A DNA stretch of 15,894 bases from Monoraphidium neglectum (taxonomy: Eukaryota; Chlorophyta; Chlorophyceae; Sphaeropleales; Selenastraceae): NCBI RefSeq assembly GCF_000611645.1, contig NW_014013505.1:1-15894 (forward strand), given 5' to 3'. The translations under genes and the position numbers were made by a program. The notes beneath the pieces are model-generated. The model was not told the origin of the DNA and did no database searches. It worked only from the letters and a program-made list of their open reading frames with translations. Shown one piece after another: positions 111 to 15,894 of this stretch (its first letter is position 1; every line of letters starts with the position of its first letter).

Positions 111-455
111 GGGGGGGGCATGTGTGGAGTGTGTATGAAGGTCCCAGTTGAGGGTGTGTATCTGGACAAGCATGCAGGAGTGTGCTTGGGCTTGAGGTGA
201 AAGGGGTGGCCGAGCGTGCAAGGGTTGAGCAGCGACATCGGAGGCCACGGCGATGGCACCAACTGCAAACGCTGAGCACCGCAGGCGCTAGTGGAGCAAC
301 GAGATTGAGATCCATAGCGCCTGCAGCGCCCACGCCGCCAATAATGTGCGCGCCTCATGAGGCCTCAACTCGCTGCCCTCACCCCCCCCCCCCAAACACT
401 CCCCCAATAAGAAAACGCCTTCACGACAGACTCGAGAACCGCCTCAACAACCCAC

Positions 456-3400
456 CTGCAGCGCGTTGATGCGAATGGCTGGGTTGAGCTTCTGCGCTGC
501 CTCTGCCGCCACCGTGCTCTTGGAGCTGCACACAGCGGTGGTATTTGCGGGGAGGTGGGACAAAGGGCGGTCATGCCTGGGAGCTGCCGCGTGACACAAA
601 TCCCCACCGTGTTCGGACATTCGGCTGGCCTCACAGATGCAGTTGCAATCCCCCCGAAAGCGAGCAACACGTAGTGGTGGTGCACCCCCATGGTTGCCCC
701 CCACCCTGTCCCCCAAACAAACAGAGACACACACGGACACACACTCACGCACCTTCCTATGTGCCAGTTCCTGAAGAGGAACTGGCGGCTGAGGTTGCTC
801 TTCTCAATGGTGTCGTCGTCCGTCACAGTCAGCTCACCACCCTCTGGCGGGGGGCGACGGTGCGGGGCGCGTGGAAGCAGCGGGCCACAGGGGAACGCCT
901 GAGCCGGCGGGTGTGACATACACATGCAGGTGCTGCCGTGGTCCCAACCCATGCGCTGTGGGCCTGGCGAGAAATCATAACAACCGCACGTGCCCTCTTG
1001 TTGAGGCCACAGCCCACCCCACGCTTTCCCTCCGAGCTGCCCCCGCCCCGCCCCGCCCCACACTGCTGCAAGGCTACAACCCGGGGGACGTTGACGGCCC
1101 ACACTCTCGCTTTTCCTGACCCGCCCGCCCACCTGTGGCCACTCCCATCATCGCGAAATTCTTGAGGAACTCGCAGCCCAGGGCGCCCGCGCCCACCAGG
1201 AACACCTTGAGCCCGGCCAGCCGCTGCTGCACGGCGCGGCCAAACACGGCCACCTGGCCCTCGTACCTTGAGGGGTGTGTGTGAGTGTGTGTGTGTGGGG
1301 GGGGGATGGGGTTGAGGCAGGGAAAGGGCGGTGCACGGCACGCACAAACACACACAAACACACACACACACACACACACACACCATAAAAAGTCAAACGA
1401 CACTCCGCACACCCCACTGGCCCCCCCCCTTCCCACCTGCTGCCGGGTGCCTCGTACTCCGCCTCTGGCAGCAGCTCCTCCGGCAGAGACTCGACGCTGT
1501 CAAAGAAGAACCACTGGAACAGGGGCGTGAACTTCCCGCTCACGGCCTTCACCACCTCCTGGCCCACAAAGCCGCCAAACATGGCCGCCATGGGGTTGAG
1601 CTCCCCGCTCGCACCTGTGAGACGGCCACAGGGCACAGGTGGGTGTGGCGGCGGTTGTTGGACTCAGGGCTGCACGTCGACCAGGGCAAGGGCTCCCCTT
1701 GCCCTTCACAGCCACATGCCACCCTCAGCCCTGCCCCCGACACCCCCCCCCCCACAAACACACAGACATTTAGACGCAGAGACACCACCCCCGCGCCCCA
1801 TCCAGGCTCACCGCTGGCCAGCTTGCGCAGCACGCCCCTGGCGGCGTCATCCAGCTCCAGCCGCGCCTCCTGGGGGGCCGCCGCGTTGAGGCCCTCCACC
1901 AGGGCCACCAGCCTGGCAGCGTCACCCGCGTTGCCGGGGCGCGGCAGGGCGCCAGACTCGGCCTGGAGGGGTGCAGAGTTGCAGGAAAGGGCCGGAAGGT
2001 CACGATGCAAGCTGGTGCACAGGGTGGAAGGCTGGGGGTGCGTGTGTCACGAGCGTGTGGTAGCCTGCCAAGGGCGTAAATTGCAGTTTGTGGCCACGCC
2101 CCAGACTCCAGAAGCAGTGGGCTTGCAGCGCGAGTCAGGCTGAATGTGTCAGCCACTTGGGCTCTGCATCGTGGTATGACAAACCCGCGCCACGATGCAA
2201 AGCCAAGGAATTGCGCAGGGTCAGCCAATGAATGATGTCAGCGCCGCGCAGCATCCCCTACAAGCCCTGATCCGCCAGGCCCCCCTGTGACTGTCCTAGA
2301 CGGCCCAGTTCACCGTAGCTTATGCTTCATTTCGCTTCTTGAGCGCAAGTGATATCAATTCACGACGCCACGCCCCGAGAAACCACACTTGTACACAAAC
2401 AAACAAACCTCCCCGGGCCCCTTCCCCGTCCCTCACAACCGGCCCCTAGAACTCTGCATTTCCCCCGTGCCCCGCCTCAACCCGGATGCTCTGTCCACCC
2501 CAGCACCCCTCCAGAGCTGACCCCCCTTGACCCCCCTTGCCCCTTGAAAACCCTTGCCCCCCCACCTGGAAGGCGTCCAGGGCCTGGAATGCGAGGTGCA
2601 GCAGCGGGGGGCGGTCCATCTTGGAAAAGTCTGACAGCAGGAACTCACCGGGGGACTCAATGGCCTGGGGATGATTTTCGCATGTGTGTGTGTGTGTGTG
2701 GGGGGGGGGGTGTTAGACATGAAAGGACACATGTCAGTGAAGGGGCAAGTGACAGGCGGGCATTGACTCTTTGGCAGGCAGCGTGAAGCTACGTGCATTG
2801 CCGACTGCTGAGCAGCGACGCTGAAGCCCGTCTCATGCACGAAGAAGCAGCTGACTCGAGGCACCACCACAAGCGCCAGGCCACACACCACAAGCCCTGC
2901 ACCACATGCACCGAACAACGGCCTCTGTGCCACATGAGTAGCCATCGCCACCCGCGTGCTGCAACGCGCACCCCCCCCCCCCCCTCGCCGTCAAGAGCCC
3001 AGTGCACGAGTCACCCCCTCACTCCCAAGTTTGTTCCTCCTTGCCCGAGGGCCCCCACCTCTGCCAGGCTCTTGAAAGCGAGCGTCTTGTGCTCCTTGAA
3101 CTGCGTCACAATGCCGCCACGGCTGTACTCTCCAAAGCCGGTCGTGTCCAGATCCAGCTCGAAAGAGTGGGCCTGCCAGATCCAGGGAGGGACCGGCAGG
3201 GGGGGGGGGAGAAACGCGTGGCTCAGGACAGCACACAAGGAGGGGGTGCTCGACCTTGAGGGCTGGTGCGCAGGCCCAATTCCTTCATCGCTTCACCAAC
3301 TAAATCACACTACACCCCTGCCAGCATTCCAGACGTTCAACAGATTCATGAGCTGAGCACTCATACCCCCCCCCCCCCGCCCGGTCCCATGCACGCCAGG

Positions 3401-5622
3401 CATCACAAGCCCACCTTGGGGTTTTTGACGCGAATGGGCTTGTGGGTGTTGAGCTCCTCCATGCCCACCACCTCGGTGAACTTGACCAGGTCACCATCCT
3501 TTGGGGAGGACCAACATTGTGTGTCGCAGCATTGTGGCTACTGAGCAGCCGGGCCCACAAACGCAACCAGCTGAGGGGAGTCAGGCACACCAGCTGCGGC
3601 CCCAGTGACGCACGGCTGGCGTGGGAGAGAGAATGCACTCCTCGCTCGCCCATCCTGTCTTACATCAGCTCAGCTCTTCTGAAGACAGTGTCCCCATGAT
3701 CCCACTGAGAACAACAAGCGCTTCACATCCGCGCCCCCCCTCCACCTGGTGGCCCCCTCACCTGGAACTGCAGGCGCTCGTCGTCGATGCAGGTGACGAG
3801 GGCCGGGTTGCCGCTGGTCACGGAGGCCACGATACCGCTGTGGGGCTCCTCGCCTGAGACGTTTTAGGGAGGGGCGCAGGCGGGGGTGGTCAGGAGGGGG
3901 GAGACGTATTATTGCAAAGAGTAGGGCAACAGCAGTCAGACTCAAACGAGAGGGGCTTGGCATCCCTGTCATCCAACGAGCTGCATCATCATAACAGGTT
4001 TTGCACTGCGCTATCCCATTAAATACATTGTAGCCACGGCTGAAAAGTGCTGGGCTGCAATGCAAGCACCGGGCGTCACGCCACCAGATGTCCGCAAATG
4101 CGCCGAGGGCCGGCCGCTGCTGCAACAGGCTCTGCAAACGACCGTGACACCAAGAGGTGCACTAGCTACTACACAGCCGCTGCACCATCATGCACTGCTC
4201 CAAACCAGCCGCAAATCACCCTGTCAGGTCCATGGCACCGCGGCTGCTGCAGCTGCTGGCGCGGCTGCCAGTGCTGTTGCCCCTAGCGAAGCTGCCGCCG
4301 CTGCAGCTGCCATCATCGCCGCTGCTGCTGCCGCCGCCGCCGCTGCTGCTGCCGCCGCTACTGCTGCCGCCGCTGCTGCTGCCGCCGCTGCTACCACCAC
4401 TGCTGCTGCCGCCGCTGCTTCTGCAACTATCGCTGCGGGAGCCAGCGCCGCTGCTGCTGCTGCTCCGTCTGTTGCTGCGTATGCCCGCACCAGTACCCAC
4501 ACGAGCGCCCACCCAGGTCCCAAAGGCCTCACCGTCCGTATCAAACACCGTGAAGGACGGGCCAAAGTCCGTAAATACACTGGCAAACACGCCCCGCGTC
4601 TCCGCACGAATGAAGGCGATTGGCGGGCTGTGGGTGCGGCACACCTCGTTGATGCGCTTGGACTCCTCCAGGCTCGCCGTCGTGAGCACCACCACCTTGG
4701 GTGGTGGACCGGGGGCCAGGAGGTGTATGCGGCTCAGTGTGCATGTGTGCATGCACATGCGCGCAGGCGTGCATGGTGGTGGGTCGGTTACAGGGAGGGT
4801 AGGCTGGGGCATAGGAAACGCTGATTGGCCTACGGCTGTTGTTTGTGCAGCCAGAGTTTGCACATGCAGCTGCCGGACGGGAATAGCTTAGCTGCTACAA
4901 TGCATGCCTGCAGGCCAGCGGCGTTGATGAAGAAGCACCCCACTTCATCGCGCTGCCTCTCAAGGCACGGTGCAGGGCCGCGACGGCTGCCAGCACGCGC
5001 AGCGCCCAACCGCCTGCTCAACCGCTGGCATTGCTCGCGCATGTCTGTAAGCTTTTCTATCCCACCTGGAATTGTCCAATGAATTCAGCAGTCAGCTCCT
5101 GCGAGCTAGCGGCCACCTCGACAGCGCCGTTGAGCTCCTGCAGCTTGTCGCGGCACGCCTCTGCCCGGTTCTGGCCCACGTCGTCCTGTGTCAGGTAAAA
5201 CTGCGCGCCAAGGTCGCGCGTCTCCACTGCCTTGGTGTCGTGGATCGTGACGGCACGCACGCCGGCCAGGATCACGTTCTTGGCTGCGAAAAGGGAAAAG
5301 AGAGGCCCGCACGCGCGATCTCAGATCCCTCCCGCCTTACTAGGCCACCCTGTGGCCGCATACGGCCGCCTCGATCAGCGCGCCAATGCCCATACTCACC
5401 GACTTCGACGCCGAGGGCGTTCATGCCAGCCACCAGCACGCTGGCCGTCTGGAACTTGCGGAACGCCTCGCGGCCATAGACCGCCAACTGCCTGCTGTGA
5501 AGGTTCTCATCAATGTCCATGGTTTCAGGTGCTTCGGCCATCCTCTGCTTCTTGCTGCGCTCGCTGGCGGGGACGTCGTCAGAACTTGGCCGCTTTGCTG
5601 TGTTCTTCACCGGCCCCTGCAT
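456..5622 (-). CDS. UBA1: Ubiquitin-activating enzyme E1 (5' half, partial)
   Basis: E1 adenylates the C-terminal Gly of ubiquitin with ATP, takes it onto a catalytic Cys as a thioester and passes it to E2 enzymes, in cytosol and nucleus. Exons, minus strand, all phase-consistent: 5622-5400, 5283-5066, 4695-4533, 3853-3762, 3498-3415, 3172-3059, 2664-2566, 1962-1812, 1614-1437, 1266-1133, 843-753, 525-456 (1617 nt, about 539 residues). The start at 5622 gives a basic leader with SERSKKQR, resembling the nuclear signal of plant and animal E1; later Met codons at 5541 and 5520 are alternatives. Domains in order: inactive adenylation domain ([17 protein letters not shown], then AKNVILAGV and [20 protein letters not shown]), FCCH region ([18 protein letters not shown]), four-helix part ([16 protein letters not shown]), [18 protein letters not shown], then the active adenylation domain with GAGALGCE and [18 protein letters not shown]. 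The catalytic-Cys and ubiquitin-fold domains must lie left of the window; no exon matching the next E1 segment is seen in 1-455. Family assignment is very secure. Confidence 0.96.
1275..1382. repeat. Paired TG/G and CA repeats inside a UBA1 intron
   Basis: Within the 170-bp UBA1 intron 1436-1267 there is a TG-rich stretch at 1275-1297 running into nine G (1297-1305), and a CA tract with pure (CA)12 at 1359-1382, then nine C at 1421-1429. On the gene's strand the GT repeat follows the donor and the C/CA repeat precedes the acceptor, so the two could pair in RNA. ORFs reading poly-His/Thr or poly-Cys/Val here are repeat artefacts. Confidence 0.9.
1963..2565 (-). other. Long UBA1 intron, no further feature
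   Basis: This is the 603-bp intron between UBA1 exons ending DAFQ and starting [11 protein letters not shown]. On the gene strand it opens with a G-rich stretch (2565 to about 2510) and ends with a CCCCTCCAG acceptor. I searched both strands for a nested gene or RNA. The ORFs here are Pro/Arg-rich, resemble no family I know, and lack splice-compatible partners. Confidence 0.6.
2683..2710. repeat. (TG)9 plus poly-G tract near a UBA1 acceptor
   Basis: Nine TG units (2683-2700) are followed by about ten G. On the UBA1 strand this is poly-C then CA repeats about 20 nt before the acceptor of intron 3058-2665. The same intron carries a run of 14 C on the plus strand (2971-2984), which reads as poly-G on the donor side. 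Confidence 0.9.
3199..3378. repeat. G-run and C-run flanking a UBA1 intron interior
   Basis: Plus strand G11 (3199-3209) and C13 (3366-3378) both lie in UBA1 intron 3414-3173. On the gene strand the donor is followed by poly-G and the acceptor preceded by poly-C, complementary to each other. This is the clearest homopolymer example of the intron pattern seen across the gene. Confidence 0.85.
4240..4467. repeat. Imperfect GCN (CTG/CCG) trinucleotide tract
   Basis: About 230 bp of mixed GCT/GCC/GCG/GCA triplets form the core of the 679-bp UBA1 intron 4532-3854. The tract is open in several frames: poly-Ala or poly-Leu/Pro on the plus strand, Gly/Ser on the minus strand. The UBA1 reading frame would stay open through this intron as a Gly/Ser tail until a stop at 4216. 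Splicing it out restores the family sequence DTDGEEPHSG exactly, so I treat it as intronic. Such tracts are length-variable. Confidence 0.9.
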
Positions 5623-6716
5623 GACCCTGCCGCCTGTAACGTCTCAAGAGTTTGTGAATTCAACATGCAATTGATCGCGCGGCCGACAAGAGGCCGGCTC
5701 CAACGGGAGCCGAGCGCGCGCTGCTCTGAAGCTGCTGCAAACATGATGCACTGCCGGCACACGCATTCATGCAGAGGCGCAGCGGCTGGCCTCCAGCTTG
5801 GGGATGCCACCCATGTTGCTTGACCAAGGTCGCAATACCTATATATCACTGCCATGCTTGTGCCCACATGCAAATGTCACCCTTTGTCACTGAGGGTAGG
5901 TAACAGCGGTTGGATGCCGGTCGGGACAGCTGAGAAGGCTGTCTGTCAGGAATGGGATAATGTTGACTCAAGCAATCACTTCGCAGCGCGGTAGCAGTGG
6001 TGGCTGCAAGGCGTTGAGGGGGATCGGGCTGGGGACGCCTGCAGCACCACACTGGGCATTGCGCCCGCCCAACAGCCGGGTGTGGGAAATGCGCAGCAGG
6101 AGGCCGATGGCACAAAGTCAGCACGGACTATGTGCCTTTGGCCCACACACGGCTTGCACACAAGTAAGGTCCCTGAACCGGTTGAACACCTGAAGGTTTA
6201 TGCAGATTGCGAGCACTGGAGCACCTGGAGTTCATGGCACGCACAAGTGGATGAGCTGCGTGATGGGCCAGCAGGGCCCGCGCGTGTTTCTGAGCGGTGG
6301 AACAATCATAAGACTCTTGTGTTCTCTGGTGGAATGTACTGTATGGAGCAGGCCAGGCTGGTGCAGTATGGTGCTGGCATTGTGCATGGTGCCGCTCTGC
6401 AAGGCAAGGCCAGTTGAGGCTGGCATGAAGTGCAACCTGAATAACACGGCAGTTATGTCTGCTGGTGTGCTGAATCTTCAAGTTTGTAGCTGCATGGAAC
6501 CTGTTGTGCACGCTGGTTGTGGGCCCTCGTAGCTGCGCTCCTCGGAAATCTCAAAGCACTGGTGTGTGGTGTCGCTGACAATGGGGCTCCGCCAACTGCG
6601 GTGCAAGCAGCAGATGCAATTTACTGCATAACGCCTGTCCGGTGGAATGGGTACGGGCAGGGATACCCCACTCGCTTTGCCGCACACTTGTCACTTCACG
6701 CCCCTGTGAGATGGTG
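5623..6716. other. Divergent intergenic region between UBA1 and PRMT
   Basis: About 1.1 kb separates the UBA1 start (minus) from the first possible methyltransferase exon (plus). It should hold both promoters and 5' UTRs. It is less GC-rich than the genes and has overlapping ORFs on both strands (e.g. 6082-6417 plus, 6128-6511 minus), none resembling a known family. A 17-bp near-repeat at 6623-6639 recurs at 6767-6783 with one mismatch. I see no tRNA or mobile element. Confidence 0.6.
5840..5846 (-). promoter_or_regulatory. Possible TATA box for UBA1
   Basis: TATATAT lies about 220 bp upstream of the UBA1 start codon, in a stretch otherwise poor in A/T runs. The motif reads nearly the same on both strands, but UBA1 is the nearest gene. 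Distance would allow a 5' UTR of roughly 190 nt. No transcript evidence is available, so this is a suggestion only. Confidence 0.35.
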
Positions 6717-6890: not shown

Positions 6891-9800
6891 ATGGAGGCCG
6901 CCACGGTGCTCAAGGAGCGTCTGAAGGCCCAGGCAAATGCGGCATACGAAGCTCGCAGCTTTGGAGGTGACCGCGGGCCCCTCCTGCACAGCTCCAAGGC
7001 CCGGCCTGATGCTCAGCGGTTTGTGCGCTTGCTTCAGTCCACCGTTCTCCCCTGTTTTCATTGTCCAAACACAGTTGCTGTGGAGCTGTACACACGTGCT
7101 CTGGAGCTGGTGCCTGGCGACAGGGTGCTCCTATCCAACCGCAGTGCCGCCCACCTGGCTGTCGGGAACGTGGACGAGGCGCTGACAGACGCACAGGTGT
7201 GCGCACGCATGCATGCGTTTGCGCAAAAGCTTTGTAAACCTATCAGGTATTGAGCACCTGACACCACAGATGACCCCGCTGTGTACGTATCACTTTTGCT
7301 TTTTCGCACGGCTCTCTGCAGGCGGCAACAACCGCCGATCCCTTATGGCACAAGGGCTGGTTCCGCCTGGGGCGCGCTCTCGCCGCCGCAGAGCTCTGGC
7401 CCGAGGCCGCAGCTGCCTTGGGCCGCGCCGCCACCCTTGACCCCGCCAGTGCAGGCGCCAGTGGAAGGCCCAGCTCGCTGCTGGCCAAGGCCCAAGACAA
7501 TGCCGCCCGTGCCATGCGCCGTGCCGCTGCGCAGTCGGAACTGTACAGGGGCCACGCGGCATGGGCGGCGCGTGCCGCTCGTGAGACAGCTTGCAGGCAG
7601 GCGCTAGTGTCTCAGCTTGAGCAGGGGATGGCAGCGTACGAGTGGGAGGTGGAGGATTGGGAGTGGCGGCCGACATGGCTGCCTGCAATGGCGCGCATGC
7701 AGAGCACCAAGCAGGGCTGCGGCAACCAGGAGCAGCCGGCAGCACTGGGGCCTCGCGACGAGGGGGAGGCCCTGGCGCGGGCTCTGCTCGCGGGGCCAAA
7801 GCATGGCGCAGCACGCGACGAGCACCAGGTGGGCGGCGGCGGGAGTGCATAGGTCGTCGGGGGACCGGTCATTGTGGGCGATTTGTTCACAAGAGCTGAG
7901 GTGGGGGCGTTGCTGGGGGAGGGTGCCTGACGAGCCTACAAGGAAATCTACCTTGCAGCGCTCGGCGCTGCCTGGATGTCAGCACACCCCACACTAACCT
8001 CAGTATGTAAGACGCTCCTGCCTGTCAGTGCCGCTGCGTTAAACATACGCGATGCACCAAGTCGCCTGGCATACGCTCCTCTTTGTAAGGCCAACCTGGC
8101 ACTGCTGGGCGGGCTCTCTCACGCACTGGCGGACCTGGAGGCACCGGCCAGGGGACTGGCAATGGCCCGAGACTCCGGGCTGCTGACGTGGTATGCAGAA
8201 TCCCTGAGCCGCGCGCTGCTGGGCAATGGTTGGGGCAGTGGCGGCTTGTCCGGGCCTATGGGAGACGCGCACGTGCTCGTGCTGGGCGCTGGAGGCGGCG
8301 GCGTTTTGGCGCTGCTGGCGGCCTCCGCCGGCGCGCGCCGCGTGACCGTGATCGAGCGGCACCCTCTGGCATTGGGTGCGGCGCGGCGGCTGGTCAGCGC
8401 CAACGCAGAGCTGGTTGAGGAGCTGGGCTGCCACATCGAGCTCGTGCCCGTGCCGCTTGAGCAGTGCTGGTTGCGTAACGGGCTGCCTGCCGCAACCGGC
8501 CATGATGCCATGGGTTGCGGCGGCGGTTGTGAACGCGGCGAGCAGGGAGGTTTGGCTGCTGCTCAGAGGCGTGGCAATCATGACGGTGTGCAATTCTGGG
8601 TTGACGGTCCCCCAGCTGACTTGGTCGTGACAGACCTTTGGGCGCACCCCAGGTGGGTGAGCAAGTGTTCGTACGGACAAGTAGAGATGTCAGCTGCCAA
8701 GGCAGGGCGGCCACCTCTCGCCTCACGTCTTGAGACGAGGACCAGCAGCCTTGACGGCACAGCCAAGTGCGTCATAGCAGCAAGCAATCGTGCACGTGTG
8801 CTGCAGTCTCATGAGCCGCTTGCGCCCACCTTTTCTGCTGCAGTCTCGCGGGCCTGGGCCTCCTGCCAGCGCTCGACGCCGCGGCCTCCCGCAATCTCAT
8901 ATCGCCGGGCGTGCGCGTGGTTCCAGAGCGCGTCGCAGTCCTGGGAGCCCTGGCAGAGTGCAGCGTGCCGCGCGCTTGTGGGTTTGACCTGGAACCGGCA
9001 CTGCGGCGATTTAAGTGGCACCCCGGACTGGCGGAGGTGGATGCCGCATGGTGCGTGACTGTGCTCACATGTGTGGCCAGCCACCAGCAGAACAGGATTG
9101 CCATGACTGAGGAGGGTGGCAGGCGCAATGCACCATCGTTCACTTGCTCTGTGGACCAACCCAAAAGGCACAGAGCCTGCCAACCTACTGAGTACCACAC
9201 CCTGATCGGGGAGGCTTACGGTGCTGGAACTCTTCTTGGTTTGCATCATCCTTGGCCCTTCCAACAAACGCAGTGAACCCGGCCTCTCGCTGCTGTCGCA
9301 GCCAACGCGCATTGCGGCCCTCGACCTGCAGCAGATGCTCAGGTCCGCAGCTGCAGCAGCATGGCGCACGCCCGCCATCGAGCCGCCGGCATCGCCGTCG
9401 CCAGCCCCGAGCGGCACGAGCACTAGCCCGCGTGCACTAGAGCCGTTGCAAGAGCCCGCGCCGATGGAGCGGGCGGCCTTTCGGCAGCTCGACAAGGCAG
9501 CAGAGGTGTCTGCTGTTGCGTGTGGCCAGTGCGATGCAGCCCTGCTGTGGCTGGAGCTGGAGGCTGCAGGAGGCAGCATCCAGGCCTCAACAGCTCCACT
9601 GCTTGCCGGCTGCCACGCGCACGTGGCCTGCGACGCCCAAAACGGCACAGATTCGGTTGAGGGGCATGGTGCAGCGCCTGCTGAGGTGTTTGTGAGGGTC
9701 GGCAGCGTCAAGCAGGGGCTGTCATATCTGGATGCACCCGTGCAGCTGCGGCCCGGCCAGAAGGTGCAGTTGCGCCTGCGGCCCGCGCAGGAAGGACGCA

Positions 9801-12800
9801 GCCTGTGCGTGACAGTGACGGCGGCGCCGGCGCTTGGCGACCCCCCCTTGGCTCTGACGATGGGCCCGGCTGGCTGGCCTCGGCACGCTCTCCTGGCGCA
9901 CTGGCACTGGCCCATGCTGGCGGACGAGGCCCGCAACGGCGCCTTTGACGCCGCCATAAGGCGAGCCGCTTGGGTTTTGAGCCGAGGGAAGGGGCGCTTG
10001 TACAGGCCACCCTGTTTGCTGTGGCTGCTGGGCGGTGGCCTAATGTGTGGCTTGTAGCGACCTCACACCGATTGTGTGCTCCACTGCAAACCAGCACTGT
10101 TCATGTGCACAGCTGAGATGCGTAAAACATGTTCCCTTTCCACTGCGCGACTGCAGGGCGGCGGTCTCAGCTGTGCGGCAGCGCAAAAGCGCAGAGCTGG
10201 CTGCTGCTGGTGTCGTCCTGCCCGGCGACAGTGTGCCCGTAAGGGTGCTGGATCTGGGGGCTGGCTCGGGGCTGCTATCACTGATGGCCGCAAGGTGAGC
10301 TGCTGCACCTGATGGTACGCACCGCTGGCTAGCCTAATTGTGCAAATTTGGCAACACGAGGTTTACATCGTGGGCCGAGCGACAAGAACACCTGCAGCAC
10401 CGACAGCATGATCGCTCATGTGCCTGACTGCCAAGAGGGTGGGAGGTGCCTGGGGTCAGACGCTCAGCAATCATAGCATTTTGTGCTGGGCAGCGTCAAC
10501 GCCGTATGGCACCAGCCACGCATCTGATGAGGTGACTTCGCAGTAGCCCCCAGGGCGTTGACGCGCGATGCAGCAAGCAAGAAAACCTCCAAGCGGCCCC
10601 CTCCCCGTCCCTCAATTTGCGTTGAAGACCATATCCATCCCCAGTAGATGGGGAATGGCAAAGCGGCCCAGCTGCGGGGTTGGGGGGCGAAGGATCGTAA
10701 AGGAGGCGGGGCAAGGGTAATAAGCACTCCATCTGCACCAGGTGACGCATCAGCGGCGGCTGCCATGACGCGTGCAAGGGCAGCCCCATGCATGCAGCAC
10801 GACACAGCTCACCGAGGGCAGCATGCAGCACACGCACAGCACAGCAGCACAGGGAGCCCATGCAGCGTTGATCGTCCATCCAGGCAATACCGCCCACTCA
10901 AGCACCCACCGATTCAAAGACGTAGTACTCTGCGCGGGTGAGGGGGACTGTGATGTTGGCTTTGGTGGCGCTGGTGCCACCGATGGACGCGCTGATGAAG
11001 TAGGCCTTGCCGTCTGGCGCCAGGGACCAGCGCAGGGCCTTGGACACCGCACCCCTGGACGATGCGTCCATGATGTTGGGGTCGTGGTAGAAGCTGTGCT
11101 CCTAGGGTGATAGGGGGGTAATGGGTGGGGTGCGGCATGCAAAGTGCTAGGTAAGACAGCAGTGACATCAAGGTTGAGGACTGCCATGCCAACAGGCACG
11201 CACATGGCGTGGCATGTGTGCATGCGCACTGACACCCTTGTTGGCGTGGCTGGTGCCACGCCAACAAGACATGTGTGATACCTCTGCGCTGCGCTGCTGG
11301 GCCTCCAATCCCACCCATCACATGAAGCCCCCTGTTTCCCTCAACCTCGTGATTGCAACTCACCACGATCCCACCAAAACCCTCATACCCACCTGATTGG
11401 GGTCTGCGAAGATCTGACCCAGCTCAGTGGCGCTCATGGCCAGGCTGATCTTGTTGTCCCAGCTGTACTGCCGCTCACCGGAGGCCGCCGCAAACTCAAG
11501 CAGCACCTTGCCCACCCTTTGCTCAAAGGATTGTGCATGCGTGCGTGCGTGTGCCGATGTGGATGTCAGAGGAAAGACGGGAAGCACAAGGCAACACAGC
11601 AGCAAGCAGCAGCTGCTAACCAGCTGCGGACACCAGAGAAAAAGGGGAGGAGCAGTGATGGCAGCACGCACCTGTCCATGGTGAAGCCGCCGCCGGGGCT
11701 GTTGGCTGGCACCCATGTGGGCTTTAAGAACTTGACGGCCATGGCCCCCTTGGTTTTGTACACCGTCCAATTACTGTACACTCGGGTCGCCGCGCCTTGC
11801 TGGTCTGCAGGGCTGCTGTCTGCAGGGATTTGGGAGACAGGGCCGGTATGTGGGGGGGTGGAGGGACGGCAGCTGCGGCACACATGCTTGCAGCCAGGAC
11901 ACCGGCTGCGTGCGCAACAAGAACCCTTGGACCTGCAGCTGCAACTCACCATAAGGCGCCTCTATAGCGGCTCGCGTGACGGCAGACCCCGAATAGTGGC
12001 GCCGAGGTGCCGCTGCCCGCTGCCGCACAACCGGCACTGCTGCGCGCATCCCGCCGCTGCGGCTGCTCCGGGAACCCGAGGCTGCGCGGCAGAGTGCCGC
12101 AGTGCGTCCCATGAGCATCTGCATACTTATTTGTGTGTCAACCTGAATTGATGTAGTAGTGGCGGCGTTGTGAGCACATACTGACAAGGCGCTGCGCCCG
12201 CCATATTTTCGTGCAGGGCCGGTGCCACCCAGGCGGTCGCCGTCGAGAGCGTGCGGCACCTGTGCGAGGCAGCCGAGACAGCAACAGCCCTATCCAATGT
12301 CCGAGTAGTGCACAAAGACGCCCGGTACGTGGAGCTGTGCGCGCCTGGAAAGCCTGGCGGTGATCTGGATGAGCAGGCTGACGTGATCGTTTTCGAGGTG
12401 AGCAAATGGTACGCTGAAGATTTGGCCGGCAGTGTTGCGGAATCGCACTCTTCGCTTACGGTACTGTCCGGTAGCCTTTCAGTCTGGGCGCTTGATCTCA
12501 CGGTCCACGGACGGGTTCGAGGCGCGCCAGAAACCAGCCAAGAAGTCAGAGCCCCGGCATCTGTGACAAAATTTGTTGGGCTGCTGCTTAGTACAAGCTA
12601 CTCGCAACAGCGCTACTCCGCACGCTGTCATGTGCTTCGCCATGCTGGGCCTGCTGCGATTCAAACCATGCAGCAGGTGGACGTGAGGCACCCAGCTCGC
12701 GCCATATGCATGCGCCCTGCCCCCGCAGCCTGCTGGCTCATCCACCCCACACTACTGGGCCCTCAATCATGCCTGCTCCCTGCCCCTTCCTGCATGGCCG

Positions 12801-13842
12801 GGGGCCCCAAATCACCTGGCAGGTGTTTGATAGCGGCTGCATCGGCGAGGGTGCCCTCCACATAGCAGCTGCCGCGCGAGCGCGAGGCCTGCTCTCCCCA
12901 GGCGGCGCGCTACTGCCGGCACGTGCCACAATACTTGCGCAGCCAGTTGAATTCGACCGGCCGGGGCAGCTGCTGCACGCCACAAACTGCACCGCCAATG
13001 TTGGCGGTGGAGCAGCCCACAGATGCCAGCCGTCTGCTGGAGTTGGCTTTGACCTGAGCCCGCTCGGCGCATACGCCTGGGGTACCGGCGATTACCTTGC
13101 CGCCGACCTGGCCGGTGCCACACCAGCCGGCCCGCCCACTTGGACGCCCCTCGCGCCGCCCGAGGAGGCGTTCTCGTTCGACTTTGCTGGAGGCGACGTC
13201 AGCGCACTGTTGCAGCCGGCGCGGCAGGAGCTGGTGTTCCAGGTGGATCAGGCCGGGACCTGCAACGCGGTAGCCACCTGGTTCGAGCTCGACCTGCTGG
13301 GGGATGGCCGCCACTGCGTCACCACCAGCCCCCATACCTATGTTGCCGCTGCTGTGTGCGCGGCGAGCGCAGGGAGTAGCGACGCCGCAACGCAACCTAG
13401 GCCACAGGCGGCCGCGCTTGGCGTGGGCGCAGTGCCGGTCTACGCGGCGTCATGGCGGCAGGCGGTGCACCCACTGCCGCATGAGTGCCGGGTGCGCAAG
13501 GGCGAGGCTCTAATGGTTGCCGCCAGCCATGACTCGTATGGGGTCAGCTTTGACTACGCGGGAGACCACGCAGCAGCTGCTGCAGGTATTGGGGCCGGCG
13601 GTGGCTCCATCGGCGCGGCCCAGGAGCAGAGCGGCGCTCCGTACTTGCAGCGCGACAGCGCGTGGGCACAGCGCCTGGCAGAGGTGCGGGCGCTCGAGGC
13701 AGGGCTCGGCCGCCAAGCAGCGCAGCAGCCGCGGCGCCATGCGGCAGTGGTGCGTGCCGTAACGGCACTGGCGGCGCAGCCTGTTTCGCTGGAGGCGGAC
13801 GCGGTGCAGGCGGTTGCGATGTGTGCGCGCATGATGCTGTGA
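6891..13842 (+). CDS. TPR-containing tandem protein arginine methyltransferase (PRMT7/PRMT9 type)
   Basis: Predicted S-adenosylmethionine-dependent protein arginine N-methyltransferase. Model exons: 6891-6966, 7075-7196, 7322-7828, 7943-8652, 8844-9050, 9274-9960, 10157-10294, 12217-12397, 12823-13842 (about 1215 residues). Residues 1 to about 105 are TPR-like (AVELYTRALELVPGDRVLLSNRSA, shown in part). Methyltransferase module 1: motif I VLVLGAGGGG near 346-355, then VVTDLWAHPSLAGLGLLPAL, where Asp466 and Gly475 stand at the double-Glu positions and no HW loop is visible (SVKQGLSYLD instead). Module 2 begins near residue 750 (HWHWPMLADEARNGAFDAA); motif I is VLDLGAGSGLLS (Asp802), the double-Glu loop is VFEVFDSGCIGEG (Glu876, Glu885, nine apart as in PRMTs), and SWRQAVHPL (Trp1087) fits the THW loop. 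TPR plus two modules is the human PRMT9 layout, but there the first module is the active one. The start of exon 4 is the weak point: 7943 fits the phase but has a poor acceptor. Exon 6 ends at a GC donor. Intron 7 houses the Whirly gene. Confidence 0.85.
7205..7218. repeat. 14-bp perfect palindrome in PRMT intron 2
   Basis: ACGCATGCATGCGT is its own reverse complement and lies nine bases after the donor at 7197, flanked by GCGC on both sides. Purines and pyrimidines alternate through it. It may be chance in a repeat-rich genome. Confidence 0.8.
9961..10156 (+). other. Probable GC-AG intron in the PRMT gene
   Basis: Exon 6 ends AAG|GCGAGC, a perfect donor apart from C for T, and the acceptor is GACTGCAG. 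With this junction the protein reads FDAAIR-AAVSAVRQRKSAEL, which fits the conserved helix before motif I. The nearest GT (TTGG|GTTTTG) would shift the frame and add residues that fit no PRMT. Confidence 0.7.
10363..10367 (-). terminator. Possible poly(A) signal of the Whirly gene
   Basis: TTACA on the plus strand is TGTAA on the minus strand, the usual green-algal polyadenylation signal, about 245 nt after the Whirly stop codon. It lies inside the methyltransferase intron, so the whole nested transcript would fit in the intron. Five-base motifs occur by chance, so confidence is modest. Confidence 0.4.
10493..10564. repeat. 11-bp perfect inverted repeat in the Whirly 3' UTR region
   Basis: GCGTCAACGCC (10493-10503) and GGCGTTGACGC (10554-10564) are exact reverse complements separated by 50 nt. 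They sit between the Whirly stop (10612) and its candidate poly(A) signal, and also in the methyltransferase intron. A stem-loop could form in either transcript. Confidence 0.85.
10612..12124 (-). CDS. WHY1: Whirly single-stranded DNA-binding protein, nested in a PRMT intron
   Basis: Whirly proteins are plant/algal ssDNA-binding proteins that protect organelle genome stability and can act in transcription. Exons, minus: 12124-11950, 11819-11672, 11516-11393, 11101-10910, 10671-10612, giving about 232 residues with every phase matching. The first 58 residues are Arg/Ser/Ala-rich with no acid until residue 54 (MQMLMGRTAALCRAASGS at the start), a transit peptide for plastid or mitochondrion; Met at 12118 or 12112 are alternative starts. 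The Whirly domain follows: VYSNWTVYKTKGAMAVKF at the position of the family's KGKAAL signature (about residue 80), VGKVLLEFAAASGERQYSW, KISLAMSATELGQIF, EHSFYHDPN, VPLTRAEYYVFES and the C-terminal FAIPHLLGMDMVFNAN. KTKGAMAV departs from KGKAALSV, so the DNA-contact motif is shifted. Exon 2 has two in-phase acceptors 15 nt apart (start 11819 or 11804). The gene lies entirely within the intron 10295-12216 of the methyltransferase on the opposite strand. The family call is firm; WHY1 versus another numbered paralogue cannot be told. Confidence 0.92.
11237..11268. repeat. Perfect 14-bp hairpin with 4-nt loop
   Basis: CTTGTTGGCGTGGC, loop TGGT, then its exact reverse complement ending at 11268. 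It lies in Whirly intron 11392-11102 and so also in the methyltransferase intron. Upstream at about 11185-11215 a related GCCAAC and a CATGCCA/TGGCATG pair offer competing folds. The arms outside the stem do not pair further, so it is shorter than a typical miRNA precursor. Confidence 0.95.
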
Positions 13843-14431: not shown

Positions 14432-15762
14432 TCACGCGCCCAGCACAGGAGGGGGCGTGGCAGAGGTGAGCATCTTGCGCACAGCGCTCAGGCCGAAGGA
14501 AGATCGCGATCCCCTGCAGCGCGGTGGCAATGGTTGCGGGCGTGGGCGGCATCGGCGGAAGGGTTGCTGGCTGCTGCGGGCATGACGCCTGGGGCCAGCA
14601 GGACACAGAACAAGAGCAGGCGCGGCTACACCCCGCCGCTTTCTCCCTGTACGGCCCTCCGCCCTCGCCCCACCACCGCCCCGCCTCACCCCGACATGCT
14701 GATGTCAAAAGGGAACGTGACGGTGCTGCTGCTGACCACGGGGGGTATGTGGTGTCGCTTGTCGTTGACAGCCCGCACCACCGCCGTCACGAGGCCCTCT
14801 ACGGCAGACTGCAGCCGCGCCTGGCGCACGGAGGCAGCTGCAGGGATGGGGGGGGGGGTGAGGTCCATCCAGGTGTGAAGGCACGGCGTACTTTTGGAGA
14901 GTGCCGCTGCTGCATGCCCCATCCAATCGTGAGCAGCGTGTGTGGACACCGACACAGACAGCCTGCAACAAGCTCAGTCTGGGTTGTGCCCCGCTCAGCA
15001 GGTGCGGCCCAACACCACGCATCACCAGACTCGGGTGACGCCTGGTGTTGGCACCCGAGTCAAGCATGCTGCTGGGCTGCTGCGCAGCGAACGCCCACCA
15101 TCTGTGTATGCTAATGAAGTGTGGTCCTGCGTAAATGGGTCCGGCTGCACGATGCACAGGTTTATGCACCTATTGTGGTGGCGCGATGAGGGGAATGCAG
15201 TGGGCACAAGCGCCCCAGGCTGCAAGCCGTGGCACCCTGCTCGCCGACTGATCCCGCGCAGACGTTGACAGGATCCTGGCGGCCCGACTCGTGCATTGAA
15301 ACGCTCCCAGGTGCGCCAGGCCCTGCCAGTTACCGCGCGCTAGGCCTCTGCAGGCGTCTGAACGCTGGCCCAGCCTCTCCGCATCCCCATGGTCCCTGCG
15401 TGCGGGTGACAGTGCGAAGCGACGCACCACTGCTCCCAGTAGAGCCTCTCATCCTGCTGCAGCATGAACCAGCCCGCCTGGCGCCGCCGCTTCTCGTAGA
15501 AGGACAGCCGCAGCTGAGTGTTTTGAAGGGCGCCGAGGCAGGGCGTGCGATTATGTCGCACGGCTTTGGGTCGGGCAGGCGCCGCACGTGCCTGAGGGCT
15601 CAACCTGCAAAACCCCGCTGCGACCCCATGCGCGCCCGCTCGCGCACCAAGGTGTCCCCCAACCTGTGCGATGTCCTGTGCCCTCTGCCGCTCTATGAAG
15701 GCCACAAACTCCCCTATCCTGGCCTCCAGCAGGGCGTCAACCTCCGGGTCACCACACTTGAC
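14432..15762 (-). CDS. ATG101: Autophagy-related protein 101 (3' part, partial)
   Basis: ATG101 is a HORMA-fold subunit that binds and stabilises ATG13 in the ATG1/ULK kinase complex that starts autophagosome formation in the cytosol. Exons, minus: 15762-15664, 15513-15428, 14962-14690, 14513-14432, about 179 residues, phases consistent. Family landmarks in order: VKCGDPEVDALLEARIGEFV (plant versions have a similar CGD-E motif), LRLSFYEKRRRQAGWF, DERLYWEQW followed across the junction by LSVSVST as the next strand, VNDKRHHIPPV, STVTFPFDISMS, and the C-terminal SSFGLSAVRKMLTSATPPPV typical of plant ATG101. The first roughly 55 residues are missing beyond the right edge; 15763-15894 reads as intron. 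Within exon 14962-14690, positions 14891-14838 form a possible 54-nt GT-AG intron with a C-run before the AG; both forms keep the frame, so about 161 residues is also possible. Confidence 0.9.
15009..15061. repeat. Two interlocking perfect inverted repeats
   Basis: CCAACACCA (15009-15017) is complementary to TGGTGTTGG (15043-15051), and GACTCGGGTG (15028-15037) to CACCCGAGTC (15052-15061). The arms alternate (A, B, A', B'), so the stems are either mutually exclusive or knotted. Both lie in ATG101 intron 15427-14963. Confidence 0.9.
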
Positions 15763-15894
15763 CTGAATGATGACAGCCGGGAGAAGGGGCGCGCGTTGTG
15801 GAGGGGCAGGGGTCCAAGGCTGGAAGAGAATGACTAATAACCAGCACCGTAAAATCACATTGCTCCCCGCGCTCCTCGCGCCCTCCCCCGCACA

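Follow-up and report, generated by a model that had tools for sequence, protein, structure and literature searches.

A Whirly gene nested antisense in a PRMT intron of a green alga, with traces of the layout in two relatives

In the window (the whole 15,894-nt stretch of DNA analysed here), the coding region of a Whirly gene lies wholly within a single intron of an arginine methyltransferase (PRMT) gene, on the opposite strand. We put at roughly 0.88 the probability that this is an opposite-strand nested pair from near the Selenastraceae, in which the Whirly gene accounts for a long intron, and that the layout descends from a common ancestor shared with Monoraphidium minutum and Raphidocelis subcapitata, the nearest named relatives for the PRMT and the Whirly protein, respectively. 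Nesting in these two relatives is something we infer from protein records. The first-pass annotation had described a Whirly gene nested antisense in this PRMT intron, a methyltransferase that breaks at 10294 and resumes in phase at 12217, five Whirly exons on the other strand in between, and an intron more than four times longer than any other in the host; the gene models bear out all of this (Table 1).

Opposite-strand nested genes are well known, and what is new here is this pair, which looks both shared and old. One report gives 567 opposite-strand nested pairs in C. elegans and, for many animals, Drosophila and human among them, several hundreds of genes so arranged (PMC12274878). The present pair resembles those in having a protein-coding gene within another gene's intron on the other strand, and differs in coming from a green alga, in a five-exon nested gene that fills nearly the whole intron, and in being described by genomic layout alone. 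Within the non-subscription literature, no report of Whirly/PRMT nesting was found by title or abstract, and no paper was found naming Rsub_08206-08208. A green-algal pair that seems to have held together from the shared ancestor of three lineages onwards would allow the cost and use of such layouts to be studied outside animals.

Anatomy of the host and nested genes

The host protein carries an N-terminal TPR region and two PRMT-like domains. Pfam scores for TPR_2 (39.9 bits) and Methyltransf_25 (37 bits) are above cut-off, and PRMT_C falls below it (24.5 bits against a cut-off of 27, E 3e-5). The best matches among solved structures are PRMT7 (9.3e-15) and PRMT9 (2.5e-7), and the M. minutum protein P0003 is 50% identical in an alignment that spans residues 1-1166. 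A C-terminal PRMT query against the window's own assembly returned three matches, all of them exons of the host gene; one PRMT locus was thus matched, in a search that reads exons apart and could miss a strongly diverged copy or one in a missing part of the assembly. Across both gene models every join is in phase and 11 of 12 introns are GT-AG, with one GC-AG; the latter is the host F/G intron, leaving seven of eight host introns and all four Whirly introns with GT-AG borders. This F/G intron (9961-10156) has the donor AAG/GCGAGC and ends in GCAG, and its join is backed by FDAAIR/AAVSAV aligning with M. minutum FDAAIRMAVAAT. The nesting intron is bordered by the donor GCAAG/GTGAGC and the acceptor TTTCGTGCAG/GGCC. 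In this model the remaining seven host introns measure 108, 125, 261, 191, 223, 196 and 425 nt, the longest of which the nesting intron exceeds 4.5-fold (1922/425). From its ATG to a downstream TGTAA the Whirly gene spans 1,762 nt, and without it the intron would be 160 nt (68 + 92), an ordinary length for this gene, whose other introns run from 108 to 425 nt.

Table 1 Coordinates of the host gene and the nested Whirly gene in the window
Feature	Position	Strand	Description
Host gene, TPR + two PRMT-like domains	6891..13842	+	9 coding exons, 1,166 aa; spliced model open throughout
Host exons, first four (A-D)	6891-6966, 7075-7196, 7322-7828, 8090-8652	+	
Host exons, fifth to seventh (E-G)	8844-9050, 9274-9960, 10157-10294	+	
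Host exons, last two (H, I)	12217-12397, 12823-13842	+	
Host exon G	10157..10294	+	Ends within SAM-binding motif I (VLDLGAGSGLLSLMAA); donor AAG/GTGAGC
Host intron with Whirly gene	10295..12216	+	1,922 nt, phase 2, GT-AG; seventh of eight introns
Host exon H	12217..12397	+	Motif I resumes (RAGATQAVAVES...); acceptor TTTCGTGCAG/GGC
Candidate host poly(A) signal TGTAA	13945..13949	+	~100 nt past host stop
Whirly gene CDS	12124-10612	-	Five exons, 699 nt open from ATG to TGA, 232 aa
Whirly exon 1	11950..12124	-	ATG and Ala/Arg-rich N-terminal extension
Whirly exon 2	11672..11819	-	
Whirly exon 3	11393..11516	-	Antisense (plus strand 11400-11462) resembles M. minutum PRMT insert
Whirly exon 4	10910..11101	-	
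Whirly exon 5	10612..10671	-	Encodes LGRFAIPHLLGMDMVFNAN + stop; protein end conserved in Raphidocelis P0001
Candidate Whirly poly(A) signal TGTAA	10363..10367	-	~245 nt past stop, 68 nt inside host donor

The protein of the nested gene has clear relatives. It scores 113.6 bits against Pfam PF08536 (cut-off 23), covering profile positions 1-135 of 136; among PDB entries it has six distinct Whirly matches (best E 2.8e-27); and it is 59% identical to the Raphidocelis protein Rsub_08207 over 99% of its length, the part encoded by the last exon included. Like the plant Whirly proteins (StWhy1/PBF-2, 1l3a; StWhy2, 3n1h; AtWHY1/2/3), the algal protein has a full Whirly domain, and it differs from them at the KGKAAL motif, which reads KTKGAM in both the window and Raphidocelis, with three of six positions kept. 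According to a review, KGKAAL is largely confined to angiosperms (PMC10909546), so this difference is not decisive against Whirly identity. No acidic residue occurs before position 55 in the window protein or position 46 in Raphidocelis. Both proteins have RHY at 42, with S next in the window and A next in Raphidocelis; under a cleavage rule this may point to the mitochondrion as destination. A further family member, P0002 (231 aa; longest contig 3,331 bases), is a partial Whirly whose second half diverges from the family and is perhaps a mis-spliced gene model.

TGTAA serves as a poly(A) signal in green algae. On the minus strand it occurs once in the host intron, at 10367-10363; the first-pass annotation had likewise placed a candidate poly(A) signal for Whirly inside the intron. 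The chance expectation for the 317 nt from the Whirly stop to exon G is 0.11 occurrences, and this one short motif is weak alone and is kept as a candidate only. No RNA gene was found in the window by Rfam at gathering score.

Traces of the layout in two relatives

In Raphidocelis the two genes adjoin. Rsub_08207 is the Whirly protein, and the tag beside it, Rsub_08206, corresponds to the 3′ part of the host PRMT: its 391 aa align to host residues 789-1166 at 46% identity, starting about 22 residues past the junction at 767, so it is without motif I. Both proteins are listed with a longest contig of 266,203 bases, and together with the consecutive tags this places the 3′ part of the host next to Whirly. 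Searching with the full-length PRMT gave 16 matches, none named as Raphidocelis (most are without an organism name). Rsub_08206 was the second of 55 matches when exons G-I alone formed the query, a query chosen on the guess that the nested gene splits the host annotation in Raphidocelis. The adjacency thus concerns the 3′ half; full nesting is probable, with the upstream half expected under the next tag. Relatives' DNA was sought in viral and genome contig collections with the PRMT alignment as the only query, and no match was found. Annotation of the Raphidocelis genome relied on funannotate, and Raphidocelis and M. neglectum both belong to the Selenastraceae, of which Raphidocelis is the most basal member in the plastid tree of the genome report, which also names the RNA reads DRR090200 (PMC5966456).

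In M. minutum the trace lies within the PRMT protein. At the host join, where the window has two residues, P0003 has 42 (787-828), and 21 of these line up with antisense Whirly exon 3 (window 11400-11462, plus strand). The insert GSAKIWPSSVTLMATLILEPQ aligns with GSAKI*PSSVALMARLILLSQ (asterisk, stop codon) at a score of 63, with 16 of 21 residues identical; the best scores of the other five window frames are 26-34. In 3,000 shuffles scored against the intron by itself the maximum was 50 (mean 30.3, s.d. 3.6), and in 1,000 scored against the whole window it was 56 (mean 35.9, s.d. 3.7). Among 1,674 real segments of 42 residues, taken from the matches of both PRMT protein searches and scored against the intron, the best (63) overlaps the insert and the next (52) likewise comes from P0003. 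The longest exactly compatible antisense run is ten residues (TELGQIFADP), a length equalled by the maximum of 500 shuffles (10), so the M. minutum case rests on the scored match. Read in genome order, P0003 would place antisense Whirly exon 3 between the M. minutum counterparts of host exons G and H, at the locus of J3K34DRAFT_460671. The window's version has a stop codon here, which points to a gene-model error behind the stray residues rather than a conserved exon. The Whirly protein search gave two matches, neither named as M. minutum, a species that we take from its genus to be a member of the Selenastraceae.

Such layouts are also an annotation trap. Among the matches examined, each related genome has only one of the two genes annotated whole, and protein databases now hold a PRMT piece without a SAM-binding motif (Rsub_08206) and a PRMT with an antisense Whirly piece (M. 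minutum).

Coupling, continuity and age

The host transcript would carry antisense Whirly until it is spliced out as intron, and Whirly would have a promoter of its own, either at host exon H or upstream of it, with its transcript ending near the TGTAA at 10367-10363. As the Whirly start lies 92 nt from exon H, this promoter probably overlaps exon H or sits deeper in the host gene. We consider independent working of the two genes most likely, with no more than mild interference between their transcription, and we know of no functional link between the host PRMT and Whirly. The nesting might instead have been kept because the two depend on each other for expression, through convergent transcription or through double-stranded RNA formed by Whirly and the host pre-mRNA. 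The probable promoter overlap and the traces of the layout in two further lineages are in keeping with such coupling, and in one tested C. elegans case the nested gene is reported to induce its host, although on average opposite-strand nested pairs in that animal are co-expressed less than non-nested neighbours (PMC12274878). Inertia also predicts conservation, however, as excising a nested gene without harm to either partner is hard, and we regard coupling as unlikely. A shade less likely again is the fuller proposal that the nesting is a conserved regulatory device, in which the sole Whirly gene and the PRMT would have been mutually controlled by convergent transcription or antisense RNA since before the Selenastraceae split, with the M. 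minutum antisense piece perhaps part of a PRMT isoform; if true, it would link organelle-genome upkeep to protein methylation.

Homology across the join makes it very improbable that Whirly is flanked by two methyltransferase genes, separate or broken. This possibility, which the first-pass annotation had itself raised, is implied by the Raphidocelis annotation, in which Rsub_08206 stands as a protein on its own. The host join, LMAA/RAGAT, sits inside SAM motif I, which a split there would cut, and alone Rsub_08206, beginning past that motif, would be a methyltransferase part without a SAM-binding motif. The donor and acceptor at 10294/12217 are consensus and in phase, and two alignments to PRMT7 sequences of solved structure cross the join gap-free. 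The join is also free of gap or insert in 15 of 16 aligned homologues, M. minutum P0003 being the exception; these 16 are all the matches of the PRMT protein search (7,990 candidates, scored on residues 600-1166).

Least probable of all is a recent nesting in this genome through insertion of an extra Whirly copy, to which the long intron might point; the first-pass annotation had suggested insertion of a Whirly copy or expansion of the intron around it. Unless both are coincidental, the traces in M. minutum and Raphidocelis contradict a recent nesting. In addition, the nested gene holds four introns, has no further match in the assembly and is bracketed by no direct repeat, at the lengths searched (14 nt and up). 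Searching the assembly (34.6 Mb, 1,632 contigs) with Pfam, which works exon by exon, revealed no second Whirly locus, both matches being exons of the nested gene; as this recovered two of its five exons and the assembly is perhaps incomplete, a diverged second copy could escape. Even so, a sole matched locus makes an extra copy unlikely. Origin as a retrocopy was rejected on account of the four introns. The levels of identity in the relatives (59% for Whirly; 50% and 46% for the M. minutum and Raphidocelis PRMT, respectively) likewise make a recent or genome-specific nesting unlikely.

The shared, older nesting thus remains the favoured reading. Since the two host parts form one domain in homologues, Whirly likely entered a pre-existing short intron, and we infer, for both direction and route, that it would have moved as genomic DNA, introns included, before the lineages split. 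Searched at repeat lengths of 14 nt or more, the region gave no direct repeats around the Whirly gene that would mark a mobile-element insertion; imperfect inverted pairs are present, such as 10158-10183 with 12018-12043 (77% complementary). A search that skips simple repeats gave no other match in the assembly for the host intron or for Whirly intron 3. Within Whirly intron 3, 11237-11268 forms a perfect 14-nt inverted repeat with a 4-nt loop, part of which also pairs with 10507-10521; the stretch 11100-11392, which contains this repeat, matched nowhere else in the assembly.

Methyltransferase motifs and neighbouring genes

As in PRMT7/PRMT9-like double arginine methyltransferases, motif I and a double-E loop occur in the second PRMT domain of the host (SAM motif I VLDLGAGSGLLSLMAA; double-E loop FEVFDSGCIGEG). 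The host differs from PRMT7 and PRMT9 in its N-terminal TPR, in a THW motif that reads ASW (13 of 16 homologues have TW there rather than THW), and in having lost the double-E loop from its first domain and not its second. At residues 412-430 (exons D/E) TDLWAH stands in place of the first-domain loop, and at residues 822-840 (exons H/I) the second domain retains E...E. The same pattern runs through the homologues, with the first-domain E replaced by D in 13 of 16 and the second-domain double E kept in 15 of 16. In animal PRMT7 and PRMT9 the first domain is the active one, so that the active half seems to be swapped in the family of the host PRMT.

Elsewhere in the window, a gene resembling ubiquitin-activating enzyme E1 occupies about 365-5643 on the minus strand, with limits estimated by eye. 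E1 sequences of solved structure are matched by the ORF at 1148-1663 (best 1.6e-13), and the ORFs at 1148-1663, 4216-4887 and 5272-5643 gave no Pfam match at E 0.01. An ATG101 (autophagy) gene at 14686-15894, also on the minus strand, continues beyond the window; it scores 49.7 bits for 15340-15894 (cut-off 26.5) and 16.3 bits, below cut-off, for 14686-14973. A run of GT dinucleotides lies at the window start, at about 25-72.
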